Assembly: GCA_023257855.1 (NCBI GenBank)
Contig: JALRBG010000142.1
Location: 1-32,486, forward strand
DNA: 32,486 bases
Direction: 5' to 3'
Origin: Pseudomonadales bacterium
Lineage (GTDB): Bacteria; Pseudomonadota; Gammaproteobacteria; Pseudomonadales; Pseudohongiellaceae
Below the pieces are notes generated by a model. It was not told the DNA's origin and did no database searches. It worked only from the letters and a program-made list of their open reading frames with translations. How positions within the stretch are numbered: the first letter of the stretch is position 1; every line of letters begins with the position of its first letter. The translations under genes were made by a program, and so were the position numbers. Shown piece by piece: positions 2,542 to 16,470 of the stretch.

Positions 2542-3774
2542 ATGGCAATGCCGTTGAAAATGACGTTTGGAAAGTCGCAAAAAGCCAAGTTAAACATCCG
2601 GTCCACCCTCACCCAAGGTTCGCTCACCAACAGACAGGGCGCTGGTTCCTTGCGCACCATTTTAGTGCTTGGCCTGGCGACAGCCGTCCTGGCGGGATGC
2701 CAGACCTCGTCCAGCTCCTCGTCATCGAGCAGTATGCCGAGCATGCCGAGCCCGTCCAGTTCGCCCAGCTCGCCAAGCGCCCCGAGCATGCCCAGCACCT
2801 CGTCGTCCAGCATGCCCAGTTCATCGCCCAGCATGCCGAGTACATCGTCCTCCAGTTCATCCGGGTCGCCCAGCTTCCCGACGGCCAGCTCGTCCAGCAG
2901 CTCATCGCGGTCCAGCAGTGCTTCCAGCTCGTCCAGCAGCTCATCCAGCCAGTCGCAGCCGGGCCAGCAATCCAGCCAGCAGGGCGGGCAGCAGTCCAGC
3001 CAGCAATCCGGCCAGACTGCCTCCACATCCGGCGGGTTCGAGTCTTCCCCGCAGTCCGGCACTGATGGCCAGAGCAGCGGCAATATCGGTTTCGAGAATG
3101 CCGGCAGCACCGGCACGGATGGCAGTACCGCGCAGAACGGCACCCAGGCCGGCAGCCAGAGCAATGGCGGATCCGACCAGGCCGGCGGCCAGAACAGCGG
3201 CGGTTTTGACACCGCTGGCAACAACAATGGCGGTGGTCAGAGCAACGGCAGCTTCGAGGGTTCCCAGACTGCGGGCCAGGGCAATGGCTCCGGCGACGAC
3301 CCCTTCGCCGACCTGTCCGACGGTCGTGGCCAGGTCATGACCGCCTCGGAACGACGGGCGGCCCTGGATGCGCGCCTGGATGAAGGCTTCGCCGAATTCG
3401 ACGGCATGATCCTTGGAGAACGCGAGCGCGTACAAGCCCAGGCCGATGATGCCGGCAGCGGCGTCATGTCCGGCGGCGGCAGTGGTACAGGTAATGGCGG
3501 GGAAGTCGGCCAGCCCGGTGGCCCACTGGTTATCGCCTCGGGCCCGCAGACACGCGGTGGTGGCATCATCGTGCCACCGACAGCCACCGGCCGCCAGGGA
3601 GATTTCGAGACTACCCAGGAAGAAAGCTTCCCGGTTCCGGACGACATACCGCCGGACGCCAACGACGACGTGGTGGCGCGCCAGTTGCGCGAAGCCGCCA
3701 TGCGTGAACCCGACCCCGAATTGCGGGAAAAGCTGTGGGATGAATACCGCGCCTATACGGGAATCGGCCAGTAA
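2542..3774 (+). CDS. Serine-rich low-complexity lipoprotein
   Basis: Strong SD (AAGGAGG) just upstream; lipobox LATAVLAGC; then long Ser/Pro/Met tracts and Gln/Gly-rich linker; more complex C-terminal region ending PPDANDDVVARQLREAAMREPDPELREKLWDEYRAYTGIGQ. Confidence 0.8.
   Translation: MAMPLKMTFGKSQKAKLNIRSTLTQGSLTNRQGAGSLRTILVLGLATAVLAGCQTSSSSSSSSSMPSMPSPSSSPSSPSAPSMPSTSSSSMPSSSPSMPSTSSSSSSGSPSFPTASSSSSSSRSSSASSSSSSSSSQSQPGQQSSQQGGQQSSQQSGQTASTSGGFESSPQSGTDGQSSGNIGFENAGSTGTDGSTAQNGTQAGSQSNGGSDQAGGQNSGGFDTAGNNNGGGQSNGSFEGSQTAGQGNGSGDDPFADLSDGRGQVMTASERRAALDARLDEGFAEFDGMILGERERVQAQADDAGSGVMSGGGSGTGNGGEVGQPGGPLVIASGPQTRGGGIIVPPTATGRQGDFETTQEESFPVPDDIPPDANDDVVARQLREAAMREPDPELREKLWDEYRAYTGIGQ
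2706..3015 (+). repeat. Low-complexity Ser/Pro/Gln-coding region
   Basis: Translation SSSSSSSSMPSMPSPSSSPSSPSAPSMPS...SSSSSSSSSQSQPGQQSSQQGGQQSSQQSGQ; irregular tandem AGC/TCC/TCG codons. Confidence 0.85.
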
Positions 3775-3828
3775 GTAATCTCCAGGCCGGTCCGGTTAAA
3801 GAGAGGAACTGAAAACAGGCAATTGAAC

Positions 3829-5022
3829 ATGTACAGACTGTATCGCTACCTGCTCATACTCACACTGCTCACTGGTGCAGCCGGCTGTGCCACACAGACG
3901 GTCAAAAGCACGACCTTCACGCCCATTGTGGAGGACAGCGCGCCGATTGTGGAAGAACAACTCCTGGATATCGGCATCGGCATTTTCCAGCCCGGCCTGG
4001 ATGATGTCCCCCGCAACCGCGAAGAGCTGACCTTCTCCGACGTGCGCATGGCGGAAACCTATTTCGCCTCCTACCAGCTGGCGCAGGCGCTGCAAAACAG
4101 CGGCAACTGGGGCGTGGTACGAGTGGTGCCCGGCAGGCTGGAAAGTGTCGACCTCGCCATCACCGGTACCATCCTGCAGTCTGACGGCGAGACCATGCGC
4201 GTGCAGGTACATGTCCAGGATTCCACCGGCATGACCTGGATCGACAAGGAATACGAGGAAGTCGTCAGCAAGTACAGCTATGACCCGCGTATGCGTCGCA
4301 GCGAGGACGCCTTCCAGGGCCTGTTCAACAAGATCGCCAATGACCTGCTTGCCTACAAGCAGCGCAACATCAGCGCGGCTGACGCCGTCAATATCAGGAC
4401 GGTTTCGAAGATCCAGTTTGCCCGCGATTTCGCCCCCCAGGTGTTCGATGAATACCTGGCGGAAAACCGCAATGGCATCCTCGAAGTGAAGCGCCTGCCC
4501 GCCCAGAATGACCCCATCCTGAACCGGATTGAAAACATACGCGAACGCGACTTCCTCTACGTTGACGCCCTGCAGGACTACTACTCCAATTTCGTCAGGC
4601 AGATGGAAGTGCCATACACCGAGTTTCGTCGCATGAGTTACGACGAGGTCATGAAAATGGACCGGTTGGCAGCTGATGCACGCCGCAACATGATCATGGG
4701 TGTCGCCGCCATCATTGGTGGTCTCGCCGCCACCCAGAGCAACAATGCCGCAGCGTATTATTCCTCGCCGGTCATACTGGCCAGCGGCGGCTGGCTGATC
4801 AAGGACGCCTTCGATAAGGGCGATGAGCGCGCCTTGCATGTCGAGGCGCTCGCCGAACTCGGCAACTCGCTGGAAATGGAACTTGCCCCGCAGACCATCG
4901 AACTTGAAGAGCGCACCATCACGTTGTCCGGTTCTGTTGAAGCACAGTATGAACAGTGGCGTGAAATCCTTGCCGATATCTATGCCAACGAAACCGGGGA
5001 GGCAACCAGCTCCGAGCAGTAG
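3829..5022 (+). CDS. Uncharacterised lipoprotein with internal Gly/Ala-rich hydrophobic segment
   Basis: ATG at 3829 (track begins at TTG 3823); signal peptide MYRLYRYLLILTLLTGAAGC; hydrophobic segment NMIMGVAAIIGGLAATQSN...VILASGGWLI. Confidence 0.8.
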   Translation: MYRLYRYLLILTLLTGAAGCATQTVKSTTFTPIVEDSAPIVEEQLLDIGIGIFQPGLDDVPRNREELTFSDVRMAETYFASYQLAQALQNSGNWGVVRVVPGRLESVDLAITGTILQSDGETMRVQVHVQDSTGMTWIDKEYEEVVSKYSYDPRMRRSEDAFQGLFNKIANDLLAYKQRNISAADAVNIRTVSKIQFARDFAPQVFDEYLAENRNGILEVKRLPAQNDPILNRIENIRERDFLYVDALQDYYSNFVRQMEVPYTEFRRMSYDEVMKMDRLAADARRNMIMGVAAIIGGLAATQSNNAAAYYSSPVILASGGWLIKDAFDKGDERALHVEALAELGNSLEMELAPQTIELEERTITLSGSVEAQYEQWREILADIYANETGEATSSEQ

Positions 5023-5068
5023 TGATGAAAAGGCCCCAGGCTAATTCATTGATCGCGAGCAGCAAGCC

Positions 5069-6625
5069 ATGGCTGATTCAGATTTCGACAACATTACTCC
5101 TGCCGATCTCAACCTGAGCGGCAAGAAGCCCCCGACCGATGCTGTCCCCGAACCCGGCACGCCAACCCTTGGTGTTGCAGAGATCGAACGCAGCGATGAG
5201 GAAAAAAAACGCCAGTCGCGCATCCTGACCGGCATTTTCTTTTTACTGCTTGTCCTGGTCGGCGGCGTGATTTTCATTCTGCCCAATTTCGTTTCACCGC
5301 CTGACCCTGCTGCCAGTCGCGTCGTTGTCGTCGACACGCGTTCAGACACTGCCGCCCCGGCAGGCCAGGTGTCTCCCTTCGAGGAAGCCCAGAAACTCCG
5401 CCAGCGTGAAGCGGCGCAAACTGTCCTCGCCGAACTGCTCGATCTCCAGGAATCCCTGGAAGACAAAGAAGCAGAAACCTGGGCGGAGGAACGTTTCGCT
5501 CGCGTTTTCGATCTTGCCGCGCAGGGCGACACCGCTTATCGCGAGCAGGACTTTATCGAAGCCAGGGATTTCTACCAGCAGGGACTGGATATCCTGCAGG
5601 CACTGGATAACGACCTGCCCAACGTCTTTGCGCGCTACATGGCCACAGGCGAACAGGCCATACTGGATGGCGACCCCGAACTCGCCGAGACATCTTTCAA
5701 CATCGCCGTACTGATCAGTCCCGACAGCGAAGAAGCTGTGTCCGGCTATGACCGCTCACAGATCCTGGCAGAAGTGCTCGCGATCATCGAGCAAGGCGAA
5801 GCCCTGCATGAGGCCGACCAGTTCGAGCAGGCGCGCGAGTTCTATCGCCAGGCGCTGGCGCGTGATTCAGAGCATGTCGGTGCCGCCGCCATGCTCAGAC
5901 AGGTCAACCAGGATATCCTCGACCGTGATTTTTCCGCGGCCATGTCCCGCGGGTTTGCGGCCCTGGCCAGCAACGACCCGGAGCAGGCCGAAACCGCATT
6001 CCGGCAGGCGCTTGCCCTCAAGCCGCAAGCACCGGAAGCGAATGCCGCGCTTGAGCAGACTACCGGCCAGATGACGCTCAGCGCCATCAACATCCACCTC
6101 GATGCCGCCCGCGACCTGGTGACACAGGAGCAGTGGAAACAGGCCCTGGTCGAATACGATGCGGCGCTGGCCATCGACCCCAACCTGGTGAGCGCGCGGG
6201 AAAACCGCAGCGAGGCCAACAGCCGCAGCAACCTGGACAATTACCTCGAAACGATCAACAACAATCCCCTCAGGCTGGCGGAAAATGCCGTTTACCAGCA
6301 GGCCGTCGGCATTTACAACGAGGCATTGAAGATCAGCGGTGACTGGCCGCGCCTCGACGGACAACTGCGCACCCTGCGCAATTTCCTGGAACGGGCCACC
6401 GAACCTGTCACCGTCCATCTGCAATCCGACGGACTCACCCGCGTCACCGTGTACCAGGTGGGTGAACTCGGCCAGTTCACCAACCAGACCCTGGACCTGA
6501 CTCCCGGCACCTACGTGGCTGTCGGTATCCGGGCCGGATACCGGGATGTCCGCGAGGAATTTACCGTGGGTTTTGACGGACAGTCTCCCGTCATTACGGT
6601 CCAGTGTATGGAAGAAGTCCTGTAG
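5069..6625 (+). CDS. Membrane-anchored TPR protein with PEGA-like C-terminus
   Basis: Single N-terminal TM (ILTGIFFLLLVLVGGVIFILPNFV); TPR-like helices (QFEQAREFYRQALARDSEHVGAAAMLRQ, EQAETAFRQALALKPQAPEANAAL, WKQALVEYDAALAIDPNLVSARENR); C-terminal LDLTPGTYVAVGIRAGYRDVREEFTV resembles PEGA. Confidence 0.85.
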   Translation: MADSDFDNITPADLNLSGKKPPTDAVPEPGTPTLGVAEIERSDEEKKRQSRILTGIFFLLLVLVGGVIFILPNFVSPPDPAASRVVVVDTRSDTAAPAGQVSPFEEAQKLRQREAAQTVLAELLDLQESLEDKEAETWAEERFARVFDLAAQGDTAYREQDFIEARDFYQQGLDILQALDNDLPNVFARYMATGEQAILDGDPELAETSFNIAVLISPDSEEAVSGYDRSQILAEVLAIIEQGEALHEADQFEQAREFYRQALARDSEHVGAAAMLRQVNQDILDRDFSAAMSRGFAALASNDPEQAETAFRQALALKPQAPEANAALEQTTGQMTLSAINIHLDAARDLVTQEQWKQALVEYDAALAIDPNLVSARENRSEANSRSNLDNYLETINNNPLRLAENAVYQQAVGIYNEALKISGDWPRLDGQLRTLRNFLERATEPVTVHLQSDGLTRVTVYQVGELGQFTNQTLDLTPGTYVAVGIRAGYRDVREEFTVGFDGQSPVITVQCMEEVL

Positions 6626-6660
6626 GCAAGGCCACAGGCACACCGGCATCAGGAAACGGC

Positions 6661-8751
6661 ATGGCTGACGAGAAGTTGAATTCACCCGCATCGGGCAACG
6701 GAGGTTTTGACGACCCCATTGCCCCGATTGATTTCACGCCGATCGATGCCGGCGCCCGCAAGCGGAAGCTGAAACTCAGCCCCGTCAAGATCGTGGTGTC
6801 GGTTGTGTTGCTGATTTTTGCCGGTGCCGCCTGGTTCGTGCTTTCCGCACGCTCCGTTTTCCTGGATGTGACACCTGGCACCAGCATGATCAGTGTCAAC
6901 CATCCCATGGCCATCAAGATCGGTCCCCGTTATCTCGTCCTCGAAGGCGACCTGCCCATAATCGTGACTGCCGAAGGTTATTATGAACTCGATACAGTAC
7001 TCACCGTTTCCGACCAACAGGCGCAGACCTTCGTCATCGACATGCAGCCGCTGCCGGGTTTCCTGTCAGTGACCGCGGGTGACCTGGCCGGTGCGACAGT
7101 GCTGGTCGATGGTCTCGAAGCCGGTGTGACGCCAATGACCGATTTCGAACTGGCATATGGCACGCACACCCTTACGGTGACCCTCGACCGCTATGAGCCG
7201 GTGGAAACCACCGTATACATGGAGGGTCGGCAAACCCGCCAGGGTCTGGATGTTGAGCTGCTGCCCGCCTGGGCGAACGTGAGTTTTGCCACGCAGCCGG
7301 CTGGCGCCACAGTCACCATCGATGGTGAGGACCGCGGCATCACGCCCCTGGTGGCGGAAATTCTCGAAGGTGATCACGAGATCCTGGTCAAGCTGGCCTC
7401 GCACAAGGCGTGGACCGACGACATCGAAGTGATCGCAAGGCAGGACTTCAGCCTGCCGCTGATCACGCTGGAACAGGCCGACGGCCTGGTGCTGCTGCAG
7501 TCCACCCCGAGCAATGCCAATGTCACGCTCGATGGCAGCTTCCAGGGCCAGACCCCGCTGGAGATAACCGTACCGCCGGGGCGCTCGCACCAGCTGACCT
7601 TTTTCCTCAACGGTTACGAATCCGCTACCCGCGCAATCACGACCCGTCCCGAAGAGGAAGCCTCCCTGCACGTCACCCTGCAGCCGATCCTTAACTCCGT
7701 CGAAATCAGCGCGGTGCCCGCCGATGCCGAGCTGTATATCAACGGCGAATACATGGGCAATGCCAACCAGACGGTGGAGCTGCTGGCGGCCACACAGGTG
7801 ATCGCCATCCGCCGTGAAGGCTATGTCGATTTCGAAACCGAATTCACTTCGCGCCCGGGACTCGAGCAAAAACTGGAAGTCACGCTGAAGACCCTGGAGC
7901 AGCAGCGCCTGGAAGACATCAAGCCGTTCATTACCAACGCCGCCGGACAGAACATGAAACTGGTCTACCCGGGGACATTCGAAATGGGCGCATCACGCCG
8001 GGAGCCGGGCAGGCAGGCCAACGAGGTCCTGCGCAACGTCACCCTGACACGGCCGTACTACCTGTCACTGATGGAGGTCACCAATGCCCAGTTCGCCCGT
8101 TTCGACAGCGAACATTCCTCCGGCGTGGTGGAAGGGCGCACACTCAGCAACAACAACCAGCCGGTCGTGCGCATCACCTGGGAACAGGCCGCCCGTTTCT
8201 GCAACTGGCTCAGCGCCCAGGAGAACCTGCCGCCTTTCTATAATGTCGAAGGCGATCGGGTTACCGGTTTCAATCCGTCCAGCACTGGTTACCGCCTGCC
8301 CACCGAGGCGGAGTGGGCCTGGTCTGCACGCGTCAACGGCAGCCCCGACAACCTGCTGAAATTTCCCTGGGGTGAAACACTGCCGCCGCCGGCCAACCAG
8401 GGCAACTACGCGGACATCTCCGCCGGAATTTTCCTGGGCAGGATCATCGCCGATTACAATGACGGTTATCTGGGTACCGCGCCGGTCGGCTCTTTTGCGC
8501 CGAATCCCAACGGCTTCTTTGATATGGGCGGGAACGTCGCGGAATGGGTGCACGACTTTTATGGCTCCACCGGCCAGGTCGGCGCCTCCGTGGAAACCGA
8601 TCCCATGGGACCGACCACCGGCACCTACCATGTCGTGCGCGGCTCCAGCTGGGCCCACGGCACCATCACGGAACTGCGGCTTTCCTACCGCGATTACAGC
8701 AATGAAACCCGTGACGACGTGGGTTTCAGGGTAGCCCGCTACCTGGAATGA
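6661..8751 (+). CDS. TM-anchored protein with about four PEGA repeats and a C-terminal SUMF1/formylglycine-generating-enzyme-fold domain
   Basis: Proposed ATG 6661 (track starts 6604 inside the previous gene). TM VVSVVLLIFAGAAWFVL; PEGA units ATVLVDGLEAGVTP, ATVTIDGEDRGITP, ANVTLDGSFQGQTP, AELYINGEYMGNAN; SUMF1 motifs MKLVYPGTFEMGA, VTNAQFARF, VVRITWEQAARFCNWLSAQ, GYRLPTEAEWAWSAR, FFDMGGNVAEWVHDFYG, VVRGSSW, VGFRVAR. Confidence 0.9.
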   Translation: MADEKLNSPASGNGGFDDPIAPIDFTPIDAGARKRKLKLSPVKIVVSVVLLIFAGAAWFVLSARSVFLDVTPGTSMISVNHPMAIKIGPRYLVLEGDLPIIVTAEGYYELDTVLTVSDQQAQTFVIDMQPLPGFLSVTAGDLAGATVLVDGLEAGVTPMTDFELAYGTHTLTVTLDRYEPVETTVYMEGRQTRQGLDVELLPAWANVSFATQPAGATVTIDGEDRGITPLVAEILEGDHEILVKLASHKAWTDDIEVIARQDFSLPLITLEQADGLVLLQSTPSNANVTLDGSFQGQTPLEITVPPGRSHQLTFFLNGYESATRAITTRPEEEASLHVTLQPILNSVEISAVPADAELYINGEYMGNANQTVELLAATQVIAIRREGYVDFETEFTSRPGLEQKLEVTLKTLEQQRLEDIKPFITNAAGQNMKLVYPGTFEMGASRREPGRQANEVLRNVTLTRPYYLSLMEVTNAQFARFDSEHSSGVVEGRTLSNNNQPVVRITWEQAARFCNWLSAQENLPPFYNVEGDRVTGFNPSSTGYRLPTEAEWAWSARVNGSPDNLLKFPWGETLPPPANQGNYADISAGIFLGRIIADYNDGYLGTAPVGSFAPNPNGFFDMGGNVAEWVHDFYGSTGQVGASVETDPMGPTTGTYHVVRGSSWAHGTITELRLSYRDYSNETRDDVGFRVARYLE

Positions 8752-8752
8752 G

Positions 8753-9004
8753 ATGATGAAACCGTTTGCCAGCATACTCGCGACCTGGCTGTTGGCGTCC
8801 CTGCCCCTGCTGGCTGCCGAGGATGACAGCAGCGAAGGTACTGCAGCGGAACCGGAACAGCCGGCAGCAGTCACCGGGACAGAAGCGCCGGACCCGGACA
8901 GCGGGCTGACACCGCCGCCAAGCGAAGATCCGGCGAGCGAGGATTTTGTTCCCAGCATTCGTATCACCGAGGATTTGCCCGTGGCGTTCCCGGTGGACAT
9001 CTGA
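8753..9004 (+). CDS. Small secreted acidic protein
   Basis: Signal peptide MMKPFASILATWLLASLPLLAA, acidic Pro-rich middle, C-terminal tail FVPSIRITEDLPVAFPVDI; starts 2 nt after the upstream stop. Confidence 0.7.
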   Translation: MMKPFASILATWLLASLPLLAAEDDSSEGTAAEPEQPAAVTGTEAPDPDSGLTPPPSEDPASEDFVPSIRITEDLPVAFPVDI

Positions 9005-9043
9005 GGCACGCAACACAGAGCAACCCAACAACAAGGCTAGAGC

Positions 9044-9862
9044 ATGAAACAACAGGGCATCATTTCCGATTTCATTTACCAGGTCTTCGCGCTGATCATT
9101 TCGGTCATCGTGGTTCACGCGGTCTATGTCGCCGTCATTCGGCCCAGTGCCGATGCCGTGATGGAGCAGCAGGCAGCCCAGCAGGCCATCGATCCCGACT
9201 ATGTCGGTGAGCGCTCCCTGTTCGTGGTAATGAAGGACTACGAGCAGGAGACCTGTATCATCCTGATGTTCTGGGCGATGTCGATCATCGGCCTGAAGAT
9301 CATGCGCAACCGCAACGAGAACAACCTGCTGCAGCGCCGGCTGCTGAATCTCTCCGAAGGCATGAGCATCCTGCCCGAGGACGCCCGCGATTATGCGCGG
9401 CCTGTGCAGGCCCTGCCGGCCGCGGAACGCGAGTTCCTGCTGCCACGCGCCGTGCTGGCGGCATTGCAGCGTTTCGGCTCGACCCGCAGCATCACCGACG
9501 TCGCAGCAGTTATCAAGGATATCTGCAGCACGGAGGCGGAACGGCTGGAAAGCGAACTCACCATCGTGAGATACATTGCCTGGGCCATTCCCTCCATCGG
9601 CTTCCTTGGCACCGTGCGCGGTATCGGTGAAGCGCTCGGGCAGGCGCACCGTGCCGTCAGCGGCGACATCGTCGGTGTCACGGTCAGCCTGGGCGTGGCG
9701 TTCAACTCGACGTTCATCGCCCTGGTGGTCAGCATCCTCATCATGTTTTTGTTGTACCAGCTGCAGCTGATGCAGGACAGGCTGGTGCTCGACACGCAGA
9801 ATTACTGCGACAACTACCTGATCAGGCACCTGCAGGTACCGGAGAAGGATGAGCACCAGTGA
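9044..9862 (+). CDS. MotA/TolQ/ExbB proton-channel family protein
   Basis: ESELTIVRYIAWAIPSIGFLGTVRGIGEALGQAHRAVSGDIVGVTVSLGVAFNSTFIALVVSILIMFLLYQLQ matches the MotA/TolQ/ExbB signature (IPSIGFLGTVxGIxxAF...AFxTTxxALxxSI); two additional N-terminal TM segments. Confidence 0.9.
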   Translation: MKQQGIISDFIYQVFALIISVIVVHAVYVAVIRPSADAVMEQQAAQQAIDPDYVGERSLFVVMKDYEQETCIILMFWAMSIIGLKIMRNRNENNLLQRRLLNLSEGMSILPEDARDYARPVQALPAAEREFLLPRAVLAALQRFGSTRSITDVAAVIKDICSTEAERLESELTIVRYIAWAIPSIGFLGTVRGIGEALGQAHRAVSGDIVGVTVSLGVAFNSTFIALVVSILIMFLLYQLQLMQDRLVLDTQNYCDNYLIRHLQVPEKDEHQ

Positions 9863-11190
9863 GTACCCATATCATCGAACTGAATGACCGCAACCTCAGG
9901 TTGCGCAGCCAGGATGATATCCTGGTGCAGAGTCCGGGCTTCGCCAACATCGCGGAGAAAAAGCCGCGCTTCGGTGAAGAGGCTCGCCGCATCGCCCGCC
10001 TGCATCCGCGCCAGACCTTCACCCAGTTCTGGTCACAGCTCAGTCTCGACCCGCTGGCAAACGCCAACGATCACTTTCGCCACCATGCCGACCTGGCTTT
10101 CGCCCATCTCAACGACATTTTTAACGACGTTGCCAGCCAGCAGGGAAAGAAGGACGAAGTGATCTTTGCGGTACCCAGCAACTACAATCGCAACCAGTTA
10201 TCGATACTGCTCGGCCTCGTGCAGTCCTGTGAATTCGATGCTGTTGGTCTCGTGGATTTGCCCCTGCTGGTCGCCGGCAATGCCGACAGCCGCGAAATGA
10301 TCGTGTACCTGGACATCCAGTTGCACCAGTCCGTGCTGACCACCTTTACCGCGGGCGATGGCAAGGTCACCAGGAACAAGGTCGTGCAGATTCCCGGTAC
10401 GGGACTGCTCGCCCTGCATGATGCCTGGGTAAACATGGTGACTGATGAGTTCATCAAGCAGAGCCGCTTCGACCCCCAGCACAATGCCGAAACTGAGCAG
10501 TACGTCTACAACCAGCTCGAGGAATGGATCGCCAAGGCGCAGCGCGACAACGAAATCCTCATGGAGATCAACAACAAGGGCTCCGTGTTCCAGGCGCGCG
10601 TGAACCGCGGCCACTTCGAACAGCGGACGCGCAACATCTTCGGCCGCATCAAGACGGAACTGGAAGGCCTGGCCGGCGGGCAATACGCCCTGCACTTACC
10701 CGATACCCAGGCCGGTTTGCCGGGAATCGACCTGTACCTGAACAACCTCCAGGCCGTGAATGAATCCATGCTGATGGAAAACTGTTTCCGGCACATGGAC
10801 CACATCAAGGGCAAACCGGGATCACTGAGTTTTGTCACCAGCCTGCCAACCAGCACAACCCCGGCCAGCAAGGGGGCCACTGCAAGTGAAAGCCACGCGC
10901 CCTCGCATGTCCTGATCAACAACAAGGCCTATGCCCTGCCGGCATTTCTGGCCTACGGCCCCGTTAACGGCAGCGCTGCCGGTGCGGGTGCCATCCAGGT
11001 TGCAGCGGCCGGCGGCAGCGGCGAGATCCGCCTGTCGCTTTCCGACCAGGGTGCGGTTCTCGACTACCAGGGCGTCGGCAGCATAGAGCTCAACGGCAGC
11101 AAGGCCGCCGCCCGCGAAACCCTCAAGCTGGGCGATGTCATCAGCCTGCCCGGATCCAATACCACCTTGCGCCTGATAAAGGTGACGTAA
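9859..11190 (+). CDS. Hsp70/actin-like protein with degenerate phosphate motifs and FHA-like C-terminal segment
   Basis: GTG start overlapping the upstream stop (GTGA). VIFAVPSNYNRNQLSILLGLVQSCEFDAVGLVDLPLLVAG resembles the Hsp70 vPayf...Qr...AGl...lv.eP.AA segment; VNRGHFEQRT resembles Hsp70 R..FE.lt; C-terminus GSIELNGSKAAARETLKLGDVISLPGSNTTLRLIKV resembles the end of an FHA domain. Confidence 0.6.
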   Translation: MSTHIIELNDRNLRLRSQDDILVQSPGFANIAEKKPRFGEEARRIARLHPRQTFTQFWSQLSLDPLANANDHFRHHADLAFAHLNDIFNDVASQQGKKDEVIFAVPSNYNRNQLSILLGLVQSCEFDAVGLVDLPLLVAGNADSREMIVYLDIQLHQSVLTTFTAGDGKVTRNKVVQIPGTGLLALHDAWVNMVTDEFIKQSRFDPQHNAETEQYVYNQLEEWIAKAQRDNEILMEINNKGSVFQARVNRGHFEQRTRNIFGRIKTELEGLAGGQYALHLPDTQAGLPGIDLYLNNLQAVNESMLMENCFRHMDHIKGKPGSLSFVTSLPTSTTPASKGATASESHAPSHVLINNKAYALPAFLAYGPVNGSAAGAGAIQVAAAGGSGEIRLSLSDQGAVLDYQGVGSIELNGSKAAARETLKLGDVISLPGSNTTLRLIKVT

Positions 11191-12320
11191 TGGCAAATAG
11201 CCGTGCGGCCAAGCGCGAATTCAACCCCATCAGCCTGTCTTTCCTGGACGTAATGTCCTGCGGCTTCGGTGCGGTTGTACTGATCTTCCTCATCCTCGAC
11301 CACTCCACCAGCGTCAGGAACCAGGTGGACAATCCGGACCTGGCCGCCGAGATCAACCTGCTCAATGAAGAGATCAGCGACGGCGAGCAAAACCTGGTAC
11401 GCGTCCGCAACACGATTTCCGACGTGGACTTCCAGATGGTCGAGGCCCAGGGCCTGGCCCGTTCCATACAGCAGGAGATAGACAACTTCCTGGAGGAACT
11501 CGCGCAGCTGGAAAACTCCACGCTTGCCAAGGAAGAAAGCGTTGAACAGCTGAAGGCGGACATCCAGAACCTGGAAGAGGAGCTGGAAAGACTGCGTGGG
11601 GCGCAGGACTCCTTCACAGGCAACTTCATTCGCCCCTATGTCGGCGACGGCAATCGCCAGTACCTGACCGGCCTCATTCTCGGCGGCAGCCGCATCCTGG
11701 TCCTGGTGGACACTTCCGCCAGCATGCTGGATAACACCATCGTCAATATCATCCGCCGCCGCAACATGTCCGAAGACACCAAGATCAATTCACCCAAGTG
11801 GGTGGGCGTGCGCAAGATCGTCGACTGGCTGACCACCCAGCTGCCTCCGCCCAGCCAGTACCAGATCTACACTTTCAACGAGGATGTCCAGCCACTGGTT
11901 CCCGGTACCCTGGGCTCCTGGCTGGAGGTGGCCGACGAGGCCCAGCTGAACGAAGCCGTGAACAACCTGAACGCCACCGTACCGGCCAACGGCACCAACA
12001 TGGAACGGGTCTTCCAGGCCGTAGCAGCCATGAACCCCTTGCCGGACAATATCTACCTGATCACCGACGGCCTGCCGACGCTGGGTTCCATGGATAGCGG
12101 CTTTTTTAACCGCCGTGACGACGACGGCAACCAGAACACGGTATCCGGGCGTGAACGTGAAGCCATTTTCCGGACGGCCCTGGGGGAATTACCTTCGGGA
12201 ATTCCGGTCAACGTGGTATTGGCGCCGCTCGAGGGCGACCCGATGGCGGCATCACTGTACTGGAAACTGGCCGTCTCCACGGGCGGCTCGTTCCTGAGCC
12301 CGTCCCGGGACTGGCCATAG
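11190..12320 (+). CDS. ExbD/TolR-like TM - coiled coil - von Willebrand factor A domain protein (VWA-1)
   Basis: N-terminus NPISLSFLDVMSCGFGAVVLIFLILDHS; coiled coil (INLLNEEISDGEQNL...LKADIQNLEEELERL); VWA MIDAS DTSAS, GTN, LITDGLPT; TAATG overlap with upstream gene. Confidence 0.88.
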   Translation: MANSRAAKREFNPISLSFLDVMSCGFGAVVLIFLILDHSTSVRNQVDNPDLAAEINLLNEEISDGEQNLVRVRNTISDVDFQMVEAQGLARSIQQEIDNFLEELAQLENSTLAKEESVEQLKADIQNLEEELERLRGAQDSFTGNFIRPYVGDGNRQYLTGLILGGSRILVLVDTSASMLDNTIVNIIRRRNMSEDTKINSPKWVGVRKIVDWLTTQLPPPSQYQIYTFNEDVQPLVPGTLGSWLEVADEAQLNEAVNNLNATVPANGTNMERVFQAVAAMNPLPDNIYLITDGLPTLGSMDSGFFNRRDDDGNQNTVSGREREAIFRTALGELPSGIPVNVVLAPLEGDPMAASLYWKLAVSTGGSFLSPSRDWP

Positions 12321-12370
12321 GTCAGGGAAAGAGGAAAGAAAAGCTACTTTCATTTACCTTAATGTAAACC

Positions 12371-13372
12371 ATGGCACGCAGAGAAACTGAAACATTCAAC
12401 ATTTCCTTCCTGGATGTCATGTCTTGTGGCTTCGGGGCTATCATCCTGTTGCTGATGATCACCAAGTCGTCGGCACCGACCCCGCTGGAAATATCCGATA
12501 CCCCGAGAGAGGGGAGTGTGCTGGAGCTGCAGCGCCAGCTCTTCGAGATCCGTGGTGAAACCAACATCCTCAACCGAGACCTCAATGCCAAACATGAGCA
12601 GCTGTCCCAGTACGAGGAGCGCATTGCCCGCCTGCGCCGGGAGCTGAGCACGCTCCGCGGCCAGTTCAACAGCACCAACCAGCAGTCCACCGTCGACGAA
12701 ATCCTGGAAGGCCAGCTGGCTATTGCCCGGCAGGAGCTCACCGACGAGATGCGCCGGCTGCAGGCCAACCTTGACCAGGAGCGCCTGGACGATTCCGTGG
12801 GCGGCGTACCCGTGGACAGCGAGTACATTATCTTCCTGATCGACACTTCGGGCAGTATGTTCAATTACAGCTGGTCGCGCATGCTCGAGGTCATGGTGGA
12901 CACCCTCGATATCTACCCCGAGGTCAAGGGCATCCAGGTAATGAACGACATGGGTGAATACCTGTTTTCCAGCTTTCGCGGGGACTGGATCCCGGATACC
13001 CCGGCCAGGCGCCAGGCCATCCTCCAGCGCCTCAGGACCTGGAATCCCTTCAGTAATTCCAGCCCGGTGGAAGGCATCACGGCCGCCATCCGCACGTACT
13101 ACGATCCGGGCAAGAAAATCAGCCTGTACGTGCTCGGGGACGAGTTTCCGCCCGCCAGCGGCTCGATTCGGGAAGTCATAGACACCGTGGACAGGATAAA
13201 TGTGGAAAATGCAAACGGCGACCGCCTGGTACGCATCCACGGCATCGGTTTCCCCGTATATTTCTCCCAGCCGGACCGCTACCAGGCCACCGGCGAACGC
13301 TTTGCCACCCTCATGAGGGAGCTGGCCCGCAAAAACGGCGGCACCTTCGTGGGACTGAACGATTTTTACTAG
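12371..13372 (+). CDS. ExbD/TolR-like TM - coiled coil - VWA-like domain protein (VWA-2)
   Basis: N-terminus FNISFLDVMSCGFGAIILLLMITKSS; coiled coil (ELQRQLFEIRGETNILNRDL...RIARLRRELSTLRGQ); VWA first motif FLIDTSGSM. Confidence 0.88.
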   Translation: MARRETETFNISFLDVMSCGFGAIILLLMITKSSAPTPLEISDTPREGSVLELQRQLFEIRGETNILNRDLNAKHEQLSQYEERIARLRRELSTLRGQFNSTNQQSTVDEILEGQLAIARQELTDEMRRLQANLDQERLDDSVGGVPVDSEYIIFLIDTSGSMFNYSWSRMLEVMVDTLDIYPEVKGIQVMNDMGEYLFSSFRGDWIPDTPARRQAILQRLRTWNPFSNSSPVEGITAAIRTYYDPGKKISLYVLGDEFPPASGSIREVIDTVDRINVENANGDRLVRIHGIGFPVYFSQPDRYQATGERFATLMRELARKNGGTFVGLNDFY

Positions 13373-13412
13373 GACCCGTGGAAGCCCCGGAAACCGGGAT
13401 ATTCCGCGGATA

Positions 13413-13440
13413 TTGATGTAACCGCAAACTGGAGTACACT
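13413..13440 (+). promoter_or_regulatory. Candidate sigma70 promoter upstream of the 13506 lipoprotein
   Basis: TTGATG (13413-13418), 16-nt spacer, TACACT (13435-13440). Confidence 0.35.
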
Positions 13441-13505
13441 AGGGAGCCCACCTCCGGAAACCGGCAGAACCCTGCGTTTTCCGTGCAACAGGAGGGTAAG
13501 ATTTT

Positions 13506-14159
13506 ATGATCACCAGAGTTAGCCTATCGCAATTGCCACAGGCCGCCAGGACGCTCTTCCTGCCGGTTGCCATTATTTTGCTGGTCTCCTGCTCGGCGGC
13601 CACCATCGATATCAGTGGCACCTACCCCGCCCCGCTGGTGCAGAAGCTGCCGCTGACGGTCGGGGTTTACTATGATGATGCTTTCACCAACTACAGCTTC
13701 ATCGAGATCAACGACAACACCGGCGATGACCAGTACATCATCAATTCCGGCGCCTCGCAGGTCGAACTCTTCAATACCATGCTGCCGGCGGTTTTCGAGC
13801 AGGTTGTCCACCTGGACAGCATCGACAGCGCCGCCAACTTCAACAACCTCGACGCCGTGTTTGTGCCCGCTATCGAGGAGTTCCAGGTTGGCCTGCCCCA
13901 GAAGACCCGCCTGAACGTTTACGAGATCTGGGTGAAGTACAACATGCGCCTGGCCAAGGCCAACGGCGACTACATTGCCGACTGGGTAATGACGGCTTAC
14001 GGCAAGTCGCCGGAAGAAACATTCCAGTCCGTGGATGCCGGCGTCAACGATGCCGCCAACGTTGCCCTGCGCGACCTGGCCGCCAGTTTCACCCTCGGTT
14101 TCAGCAACATCCCCGAAGTGAATGAATGGCTGCGGTCGCAGAATGCGCTCGCGGACTGA
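13506..14159 (+). CDS. Uncharacterised lipoprotein
   Basis: Signal peptide with lipobox ILLVSC; AGGAGG SD upstream. Confidence 0.8.
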   Translation: MITRVSLSQLPQAARTLFLPVAIILLVSCSAATIDISGTYPAPLVQKLPLTVGVYYDDAFTNYSFIEINDNTGDDQYIINSGASQVELFNTMLPAVFEQVVHLDSIDSAANFNNLDAVFVPAIEEFQVGLPQKTRLNVYEIWVKYNMRLAKANGDYIADWVMTAYGKSPEETFQSVDAGVNDAANVALRDLAASFTLGFSNIPEVNEWLRSQNALAD

Positions 14160-14298
14160 CAGGATCCGGACAACAACAAAGCAATAATTGAATTAATAAA
14201 AGATATTTGAAGGGAAATAAGCGGTTTTATCCAGGAAGTTGAAAAGGCAAAACAGCAACGACATGTAAACGCCACATACCGATCGCAGAGTTATCGCC

Positions 14299-14976
14299 AT
14301 GAGTACAATCGCTACATTCAAACAACTAGTCCGTCTGGTATTCGCCCTTCCGGCAGCTGCCATAATCAGCAGTTGCACCACTACTGAAATCGACGAATTC
14401 CGGCAAAGTGCCACCACCATCGGTGAGAATGAAAGCATCGTCATTCTCGGCCGGCGCCAGAACAACAATTACGAAACCGAGGGAAGCTTTGTCGACTGTG
14501 TCGCGAACGTGGTCGCCAGCGGCCAGAACGGCATCAACGTGGTAAACGAGCAGGAATTCCTCGATGCCATGTTTCCCTTCTTCGAGCCCCGCACGGCACC
14601 CATGCGCACCGGTCACCTCGAGCAGCTCATGGCCGTCGACATCGCCGCGCAGAAAATAGAAGAATTCGGCATCGAGTACATCGTCTGGCTGGACGGCATC
14701 ACCCAGCGTTCCGACCAGTCCGGTTCCATCTCCTGCACCATCGGTCCGGGCGGCGGCGGCTGTTTCGGTTTCGGCACCTGGTCCGATGATTCCAACTTCG
14801 AGGCGGAAATCTGGGACATGGATACTCTCTCGACCGTCGGCTCTATCAGCACCGAAGCCAACGGCCAGTCGTACATGCCTGCCGTGGTAGTGCCCATCCC
14901 GCTGATCGCCAGGGTCGAAGCCAACGCCTGCAGCGGCCTGGGCAACCAGCTCAAGCAATTCATCAACGGCACCTGA
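14299..14976 (+). CDS. Uncharacterised lipoprotein
   Basis: Signal peptide with lipobox AIISSC followed by TTTEIDEFRQSATTIGENESIVILGRRQ. Confidence 0.75.
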   Translation: MSTIATFKQLVRLVFALPAAAIISSCTTTEIDEFRQSATTIGENESIVILGRRQNNNYETEGSFVDCVANVVASGQNGINVVNEQEFLDAMFPFFEPRTAPMRTGHLEQLMAVDIAAQKIEEFGIEYIVWLDGITQRSDQSGSISCTIGPGGGGCFGFGTWSDDSNFEAEIWDMDTLSTVGSISTEANGQSYMPAVVVPIPLIARVEANACSGLGNQLKQFINGT

Positions 14977-15027: not shown

Positions 15028-16470
15028 ATGGTTAAAGCCTATCTGAACAACTTCATCAGTCTCCGCCAGCTGCTTTGTGCTGCCGGCATGGTTGCGCTTG
15101 TCACCGCCTGCGCGAGCAACCCCACCGGCGGCGCCAATTTCGTTCTCATGTCCGAAAGCACTGAGATCGAGAAAGGCCGAGAGCTGCACCAGGAAATGCT
15201 CAACCAGAACCAGGTCTACAATGACGCGGAACTGGTGGCTTACGTCAATCGCATCGGCCAGAAGATGGCGGCGATCTCCCACCGCCCGGAACTGGAATAC
15301 GTCTTCACCGTTATCGACAGCCCGGACATCAACGCCTTCGCCCTGCCGGGCGGTTTCGTTTATGTAAACCGCGGACTGCTGACCTATCTCAACTCCGAGG
15401 CGCAGCTGGCCGCCGTGCTTGGCCATGAAATAGGCCATATCACCGCCCGCCATGCCGTCCGTCAGCAAACGGCCGCCCGCTCTGCCAATGCCGCCTCCAT
15501 TGCCCTGATCTTCGCCACCGGCGTAGACCTGCGCGAAACCACCAGCCTGATCAGCGGCGCATTGATCAGCGGCTACGGCCGCGACATGGAACTGGAGGCG
15601 GACAGCCTGGGTGCGGAATACCTGTACAAGGCCGGCTATGACCCGAATGCCATGGTGGAAGTCATCGAGGTGCTGAAGAACCACGAGGATTTCATGAAGC
15701 GCACATCCAACCGCACGGCGGTTGCCTATCACGGCCTGTTCGCCTCGCATCCGCGTAATGACACCCGCCTGCAGGAAGTAGTCGGCAAGGCCGGCACGCT
15801 GTCAGCACAGCAGGTGGTGCAGAAGGACCCTGCCGAATTCCGTTCACAGATGACGGGGCTCATTGTCGGCCCGAGCCCGCAAAATGCGGCAGGTGGCGAA
15901 CAGCGCAATCGCTATTACCAGAGCCTGTTGAATTACACGCTGATATTCCCCGAAGGCTGGCTCAAGGAAGAAACGACGACAACGGTAACCGGCCTCAGCG
16001 CCGATGGCGGTAGCCGCCTGAAAGTGGAAGCACAGCGCCTGCAGAACGCCAAGGATCCCCGGCTGTTCATTCGTGAAAACCTGGGCATCGAGGACCTGCA
16101 GCGATCCGAAGCCCTGAACCAGTTCGGCCTGTCCGGGTTCACCGGCATCAATCCGGGCAGTGGTGAACGCGTTGCCGTGCTCTATTACGGTCCGCGCGCC
16201 TTTATTCTTACCGGCAGTGCGGGCGAAGGGTCTTCCGACGACCAGATCCTGGAGTCCATCCGCAGTTTCCGCCCCATCCAGCGCAACGAAACGCTCTTTG
16301 CCAACCCCGTATCGCTCTCGTATATCCAGGCGGACGGCAGGATCAAGTATGCCGACCTGGCAACGCAAACACGCTTGCCGGAACACCAGGAAGAAATGCT
16401 GCGCCTGTTGAACGGCGACTATCCCTTTGGCGAGCCCAAGGCCGGCCAGTGGGTCAAGATCGCCAACTGA
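15028..16470 (+). CDS. M48-family metalloprotease, lipoprotein
   Basis: Lipobox ALVTAC; zinc motif VLGHEIGHITARHAV (HExxH) and downstream ELEADSLGAEYLYKAGYDP. Confidence 0.92.
   Translation: MVKAYLNNFISLRQLLCAAGMVALVTACASNPTGGANFVLMSESTEIEKGRELHQEMLNQNQVYNDAELVAYVNRIGQKMAAISHRPELEYVFTVIDSPDINAFALPGGFVYVNRGLLTYLNSEAQLAAVLGHEIGHITARHAVRQQTAARSANAASIALIFATGVDLRETTSLISGALISGYGRDMELEADSLGAEYLYKAGYDPNAMVEVIEVLKNHEDFMKRTSNRTAVAYHGLFASHPRNDTRLQEVVGKAGTLSAQQVVQKDPAEFRSQMTGLIVGPSPQNAAGGEQRNRYYQSLLNYTLIFPEGWLKEETTTTVTGLSADGGSRLKVEAQRLQNAKDPRLFIRENLGIEDLQRSEALNQFGLSGFTGINPGSGERVAVLYYGPRAFILTGSAGEGSSDDQILESIRSFRPIQRNETLFANPVSLSYIQADGRIKYADLATQTRLPEHQEEMLRLLNGDYPFGEPKAGQWVKIAN

Follow-up and report, generated by a model that had tools for sequence, protein, structure and literature searches.

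The window analysed here, a 32,486-nucleotide contig of a Pseudomonadales bacterium, carries an operon that very probably encodes a small ion-powered inner-membrane motor in which the paired moving parts carry adhesion-type VWA heads. Flagella, the Ton and Tol systems, type IX secretion and Zorya defence all run on ion-driven 5:2 motors, and each further type of such a motor suggests another process driven mechanically across the bacterial envelope. A preliminary description of this DNA had proposed a new motor composed of an ExbB-like channel subunit and two VWA proteins. In substance this proposal is right, and conservation supports it well, yet it rediscovers a published prediction and is not new: PMC12204202 (Mol Biol Evol 2025, msaf138; section 8) predicts vWA proteins with a transpore helix and a conserved Asp, mostly in heterologous pairs, encoded beside tolQ-like genes with no tolR or exbD, together with AF3 models of their docking in the pore. 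Added here are the conserved operon around the motor and its pseudo-Hsp70 component; no description of the larger machine was found. The VWA-headed motor family is widespread, with a motor core that is so far only a published prediction, and the operon points to probable partners and to a regulator in the cytoplasm for work on the whole machine.

The operon and its distribution

The three motor genes were recovered exactly where they had been placed before (9044-9862, 11190-12320 and 12371-13372). The span given at that time, starting at 9044, contains these genes and omits the conserved operon that surrounds them, from about 2542 to 14976 (Table 1). End-to-start overlaps join the ring gene to gX (9862/9859) and gX to VWA1 (11190/11190), a pattern as in a translationally coupled operon. 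Promoter- and terminator-like sites were no commoner than in shuffled sequences, and no operon promoter is therefore claimed. An Rfam search gave no match and PADLOC detected no defence system. No relatives were found on the viral contigs and plasmids searched, leaving a mobile origin unsupported.

Table 1 Features of the operon, in window positions
Feature	Coordinates	Strand	Remarks
Ser-rich low-complexity lipoprotein	2542..3774	+	LAGC lipobox in sequence
LP1, predicted lipoprotein, first conserved-core gene	3823..5022	+	AAGC lipobox; no Pfam family
TPR protein	5069..6625	+	Single N-terminal TM anchor at residues 52-70; repeats predicted to lie in the periplasm
PEGA repeats and FGE-sulfatase-like domain, inner-membrane-anchored	6604..8751	+	
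Small exported acidic/proline-rich protein	8753..9004	+	Several relatives have one
MotA/TolQ/ExbB-family channel subunit (ring protein)	9044..9862	+	PF01618
gX, cytoplasmic, predicted Hsp70-type actin-like fold	9859..11190	+	Some relatives lack gX
VWA1: transpore-type helix, coiled coil, VWA domain with MIDAS	11190..12320	+	
VWA1 Asp20 codon	11247..11249	+	
VWA2: transpore-type helix, probable coiled coil, divergent VWA domain	12371..13372	+	
VWA2 Asp15 codon	12413..12415	+	
LP2, predicted lipoprotein	13506..14159	+	After VWA2 in most gammaproteobacterial loci
LP3, predicted lipoprotein	14299..14976	+	After LP2

The first lipoprotein in the table has a very long Ser/Pro/Met low-complexity stretch, and a similar gene stands first, upstream of LP1, in most order-level loci. 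The PEGA reading frame is listed from a GTG, and its true start may lie downstream. The small exported protein ends in LPVAFPVDI, and a distant relative (L259) has a protein with a similar end, FPVAIPSDM, in the same place. Directly downstream of LP3 lies an M48 metallopeptidase lipoprotein gene (15028-16470), found at the same position in many relatives, which may be part of the operon neighbourhood.

Co-occurrence of the channel and VWA genes, put forward earlier as a test of the motor, was borne out. The VWA pair is present in 31 of 146 genomes of the same order, and a separate search with the ExbB-like protein (E 1e-30) returned exactly the same 31. The full order LP1-TPR-PEGA/FGE-ExbB-gX-VWA1-VWA2-LP2-LP3 is found in 78 of 128 loci, the remainder being mostly cut by contig ends or without gX, LP2 or LP3; because some loci are present twice, from different collections, the 128 correspond to about 120 non-redundant cases. 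A scan of public collections returned at least 590 relatives. Of these, 80 were kept, from gammaproteobacteria or from records labelled only Proteobacteria, and the named ones among the 80 include Microbulbifer, Pseudohongiella, Pseudohalioglobus, Seongchinamella, Halioglobus and Sessilibacter.

Matches in the class sample came from 22 of 274 genomes, some of them marginal only, and most matches in the phylum sample came from one family outside the class. That family has LP1-TPR-PEGA-ExbB-VWA1-VWA2 and no gX, so the core comprises six genes, with gX, LP2 and LP3 as additions. The position of the ExbB gene can vary: one uncut locus (L259, genome G356) has no adjacent ExbB gene and a member of the same subfamily on another contig, while in L260 (G235) the gene has moved to behind VWA2. 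In one genome the operon is present twice, the additional copy (L060, G106:C60) being diverged, with 36% identity in ExbB and 30% in VWA1, and without gX, LP2 and LP3.

The ring protein and the VWA helices

The ExbB-type signature noted earlier for the ring protein was confirmed by a match to PF01618 (MotA_ExbB) with an E value of 1.3e-13 and 51.2 bits (curated cut-off 22.9), as well as by aligning it with TolQ proteins of solved structure. The protein probably has four transmembrane helices, at about residues 14-32, 69-87, 176-199 and 218-236. In this alignment the threonines of the TolQ GTV and AT motifs fall on Thr190 and Thr223 of the ring protein, in TM3 and TM4, both invariant among 27 sequences.

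VWA1 and VWA2 each have one N-terminal transmembrane helix, at residues 18-36 and 13-31, and the basic N-terminus suggests an N-in orientation for both. Asp20 and Asp15 read off the translations as had been claimed, and their conservation, another test set in advance, is complete: Asp20 is present in 120 of 120 VWA1 and Asp15 in 118 of 118 VWA2 proteins, counting non-redundant sequences with a readable N-terminus (one further VWA1, its N-terminus cut by a contig end, was left out). In the distant lineage the C/G of the helix motif is replaced by S/A in most members and the Asp is retained. Loci L247-L252, from the proteobacterial lineage outside the class, mostly read LDIMASGLGA or LDIISSAFAA in the helix, with the same Asp. 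In the single-pass anchors of the TPR and PEGA proteins, taken for comparison, no acidic residue is conserved within the helix core. Judged by this conservation, the Asp in the VWA helices is not a chance feature.

The likeness of these helices to the ExbD helix, also claimed in the preliminary description, came out near chance in profile comparison, and MotB gave a better, suggestive match. Profile-profile comparison of the VWA1 helix with ExbD helices gave a probability of 3.5%, with 6 of 100 column shuffles reaching the score, which is about chance. PF02472 (ExbD/TolR) and the Pfam MotB families gave no match in VWA1 or VWA2. Against MotB (PF13677), the VWA1 helix scored 19.8, above all 300 column shuffles and with Asp aligned on Asp; the HMM-HMM probability was 25.6%, and 10 of 300 block-preserving shuffles reached the score. 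The VWA2 helix scored 16.3 against MotB, reached by 1 of 300 full shuffles, and ExbD against MotB, the positive control, scored 20.2, reached by 7 of 300 block shuffles. On these profiles the VWA1 helix resembles the MotB helix about as strongly as ExbD does, weakly in absolute terms; the likeness is suggestive and no proof, since there is little signal in one helix of this length.

Between VWA1 and VWA2 the helices show clear homology (hhalign 99.3%). The known axles ExbD, TolR and MotB are homodimers. Both points favour an axle built of two VWA1 or two VWA2 copies, giving two kinds of motor, in place of a VWA1-VWA2 heterodimer. We regard this as rather unlikely, because every complete locus contains both genes, the heads have diverged, and in the published AF3 model (PMC12204202) each vWA monomer of the pair contributes one Asp. 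It is the constant VWA1-VWA2 pairing that suggests the heterodimeric axle preferred here.

No ExbD or TolR gene was found in the cluster. The genome has five ExbB-family genes, of which four (on contigs C154, C242 and, twice, C318) have an ExbD gene on their contig, unlike the one in the window. An ExbD gene was detected in 4 of the 128 loci, in each case separated from the motor gene by over 10 kb. The genome also encodes an ExbD (L144, G000:C333:18610-18984) on a contig with no ExbB-family match. Such a gene could supply the axle from elsewhere, with the VWA proteins sitting beside the ring like TolA or TonB; PMC12204202 does describe a separate vWA family that attaches laterally to the ring through an SHLS motif, and VWA1 His38, near the periplasmic end of the helix, is invariant in the order-level alignment. 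This arrangement is nonetheless improbable. The axle position is occupied by an Asp in the VWA helices, which lack an SHLS motif, no ExbD gene lies close to the motor gene in the 128 loci, His38 is absent from most of the distant lineage whereas the Asp is retained, and the C333 ExbD sits among unrelated genes.

That the ExbB-like and VWA proteins instead form a static membrane assembly or an ion-gated sensor, with a structural Asp, would agree with the pseudo-ATPase look of gX, suited to a regulatory or scaffold role, and with the lack of any known phenotype in motility, transport or energy, but we give it a low probability, since the Asp and the Thr ring, both halves of the ion path, are invariant and a scaffold would not need that. 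The motor reading of the preliminary description came through the tests of conservation and gene content, namely those of the Asp, the co-occurrence, the pore Thr residues and the lack of ExbD in the cluster, and the helix profiles are suggestive.

Stalks, heads and accessory proteins

The AF2 model of VWA1 comprises a helix (the membrane helix itself being of low confidence in this monomer), a long coiled coil (helices 49-109 and 115-142) and a VWA domain, supporting the coiled coil proposed to follow the transmembrane helix; in VWA2 it is graded probable. The VWA1 domain, a VWA by the fold of the model, also matches PF13519 (VWA_2) at 3.1e-7. The VWA2 match to PF13519, at 0.045, is below threshold, and its DTSGS metal-site motif is invariant. 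In the MIDAS of VWA1, D174, S176, S178 and D293 are invariant and T269 is present in 25 of 29 sequences; in VWA2, D158, S160, S162 and D257 are invariant and Ser replaces Thr. The metal-site residues of the heads are thus conserved, and the designation as an adhesion module was unsupported by anything beyond inference.

gX matches no Pfam family. A Foldseek search with its AF2 model (pLDDT 88) returned Hsp70 nucleotide-binding domains, including that of Ssz1 (4gni; TM 0.65 by target length, E 3.9e-16). Active Hsp70-type ATPases have the glycine-rich phosphate loops DLGTT and DLGGGT. The corresponding loops of the gX family read E/D-L-N-D and D/E-L-Q-L-H-Q and have no glycines, so gX is probably a pseudo-ATPase; an active ATPase was judged unlikely on account of these degenerate loops. 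Beta strands are predicted for the C-terminal 90 residues. As only one of 27 gX members gave an FHA match, a marginal one (0.15), the label FHA-like for this domain is a lead only.

Among NCBIfam families the PEGA protein is most like GldK (6.6e-32), with 111 bits, below the cut-off of 350. Formylglycine-generating enzymes have their catalytic Cys residues after an RGGSW-type motif. In the PEGA protein no conserved Cys was found in the catalytic region after this motif, and 26 of 27 members have at most two Cys in the whole protein. It was accordingly rejected as a formylglycine-generating enzyme and is probably no enzyme.

The predicted machine and known motors

Gene content, order, co-occurrence and residue conservation, together with the predicted folds of gX and VWA1, indicate that the cluster is likely to encode an ion-driven inner-membrane motor of the 5:2 type with an axle of one VWA1 and one VWA2. 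We infer its stoichiometry, rotation, ion and partners as follows. Five copies of the 9044-9862 product would form a ring around a two-helix axle, in which the VWA1 and VWA2 helices take the place of ExbD, TolR or MotB. As ions pass the pore, Asp20 and Asp15 would be protonated alternately, facing the ring of Thr190 and Thr223, and the axle would turn, so that the stalks with their VWA heads move on the periplasmic side. Through their metal sites the heads probably bind other proteins. Likely candidates are the co-conserved TPR and PEGA/pseudo-enzyme proteins, both anchored in the inner membrane, and the lipoproteins, by which force would reach the outer membrane. gX, the pseudo-ATPase of Hsp70 type, is a likely cytoplasmic adaptor or regulator. 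Our best guess for the cellular role is envelope force transduction, and the operon is best read as a force transducer that spans the envelope and has a VWA heterodimer as its axle. More tentatively, the operon may specify a machine crossing the envelope, with 6 to 10 conserved parts, that is shared by hundreds of gammaproteobacteria and by a further proteobacterial lineage. Its ion motor would be an asymmetric 5:1:1 one with a true heterodimer of one VWA1 and one VWA2 as axle, acted on from the cytoplasmic side by the Hsp70-derived pseudo-ATPase.

Among the closest known systems are the TPH-vWA/TolQ-like motors predicted in PMC12204202, which share with the window cluster a tolQ-like gene, a heterologous vWA pair with a transpore Asp helix, no tolR or exbD in synteny, and occurrence in Proteobacteria; the match is by gene content as described there for the query, Idiomarina loihiensis. 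For this family, section 8 of that paper names just the tolQ-like and vWA genes, with no pseudo-Hsp70, PEGA/pseudo-FGE or TPR protein or lipoproteins, and reports no phenotype for its vWA proteins. In open-licence full texts, no phenotype, structure or ion-flux data were found for the operon, and a study of MotAB relatives (PMC12505986, mBio 2025) does not mention VWA.

Zorya ZorA-ZorB likewise combines an ExbB-family ring with a single-pass partner in a 5:2 type; among the proteins scanned, PADLOC gave a weak ZorA match (0.0024), no ZorB and no effector genes, and the cluster was not assigned to Zorya. ExbB-ExbD and TolQ-TolR have in common with the cluster a PF01618 ring with pore Thr and a single-TM partner with Asp at the essential position. 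Their ring protein has three TM helices compared with an apparent four here. In the cluster the partners are coiled-coil VWA proteins from two different genes, and no TonB or TolA gene was found. MotA-MotB shares the probable 4-TM ring with a cytoplasmic domain between TM2 and TM3; the VWA proteins lack its OmpA-like peptidoglycan-binding domain, and MotB gives their best helix-profile match.

In the GldL-GldM system of type IX secretion and gliding, with GldK/GldN, the motor genes also adjoin an FGE-like, GldK-type protein. No match to GldL, GldM or GldN was found among the proteins scanned, so the cluster does not belong to GldKLMN, and the PEGA protein differs from GldK in having PEGA repeats and an inner-membrane anchor in place of a lipobox. 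GldM makes contact with a ring of GldK/GldN that is associated with the outer membrane (PMC8986121), and, by analogy only, the PEGA/pseudo-FGE protein might play a similar part.
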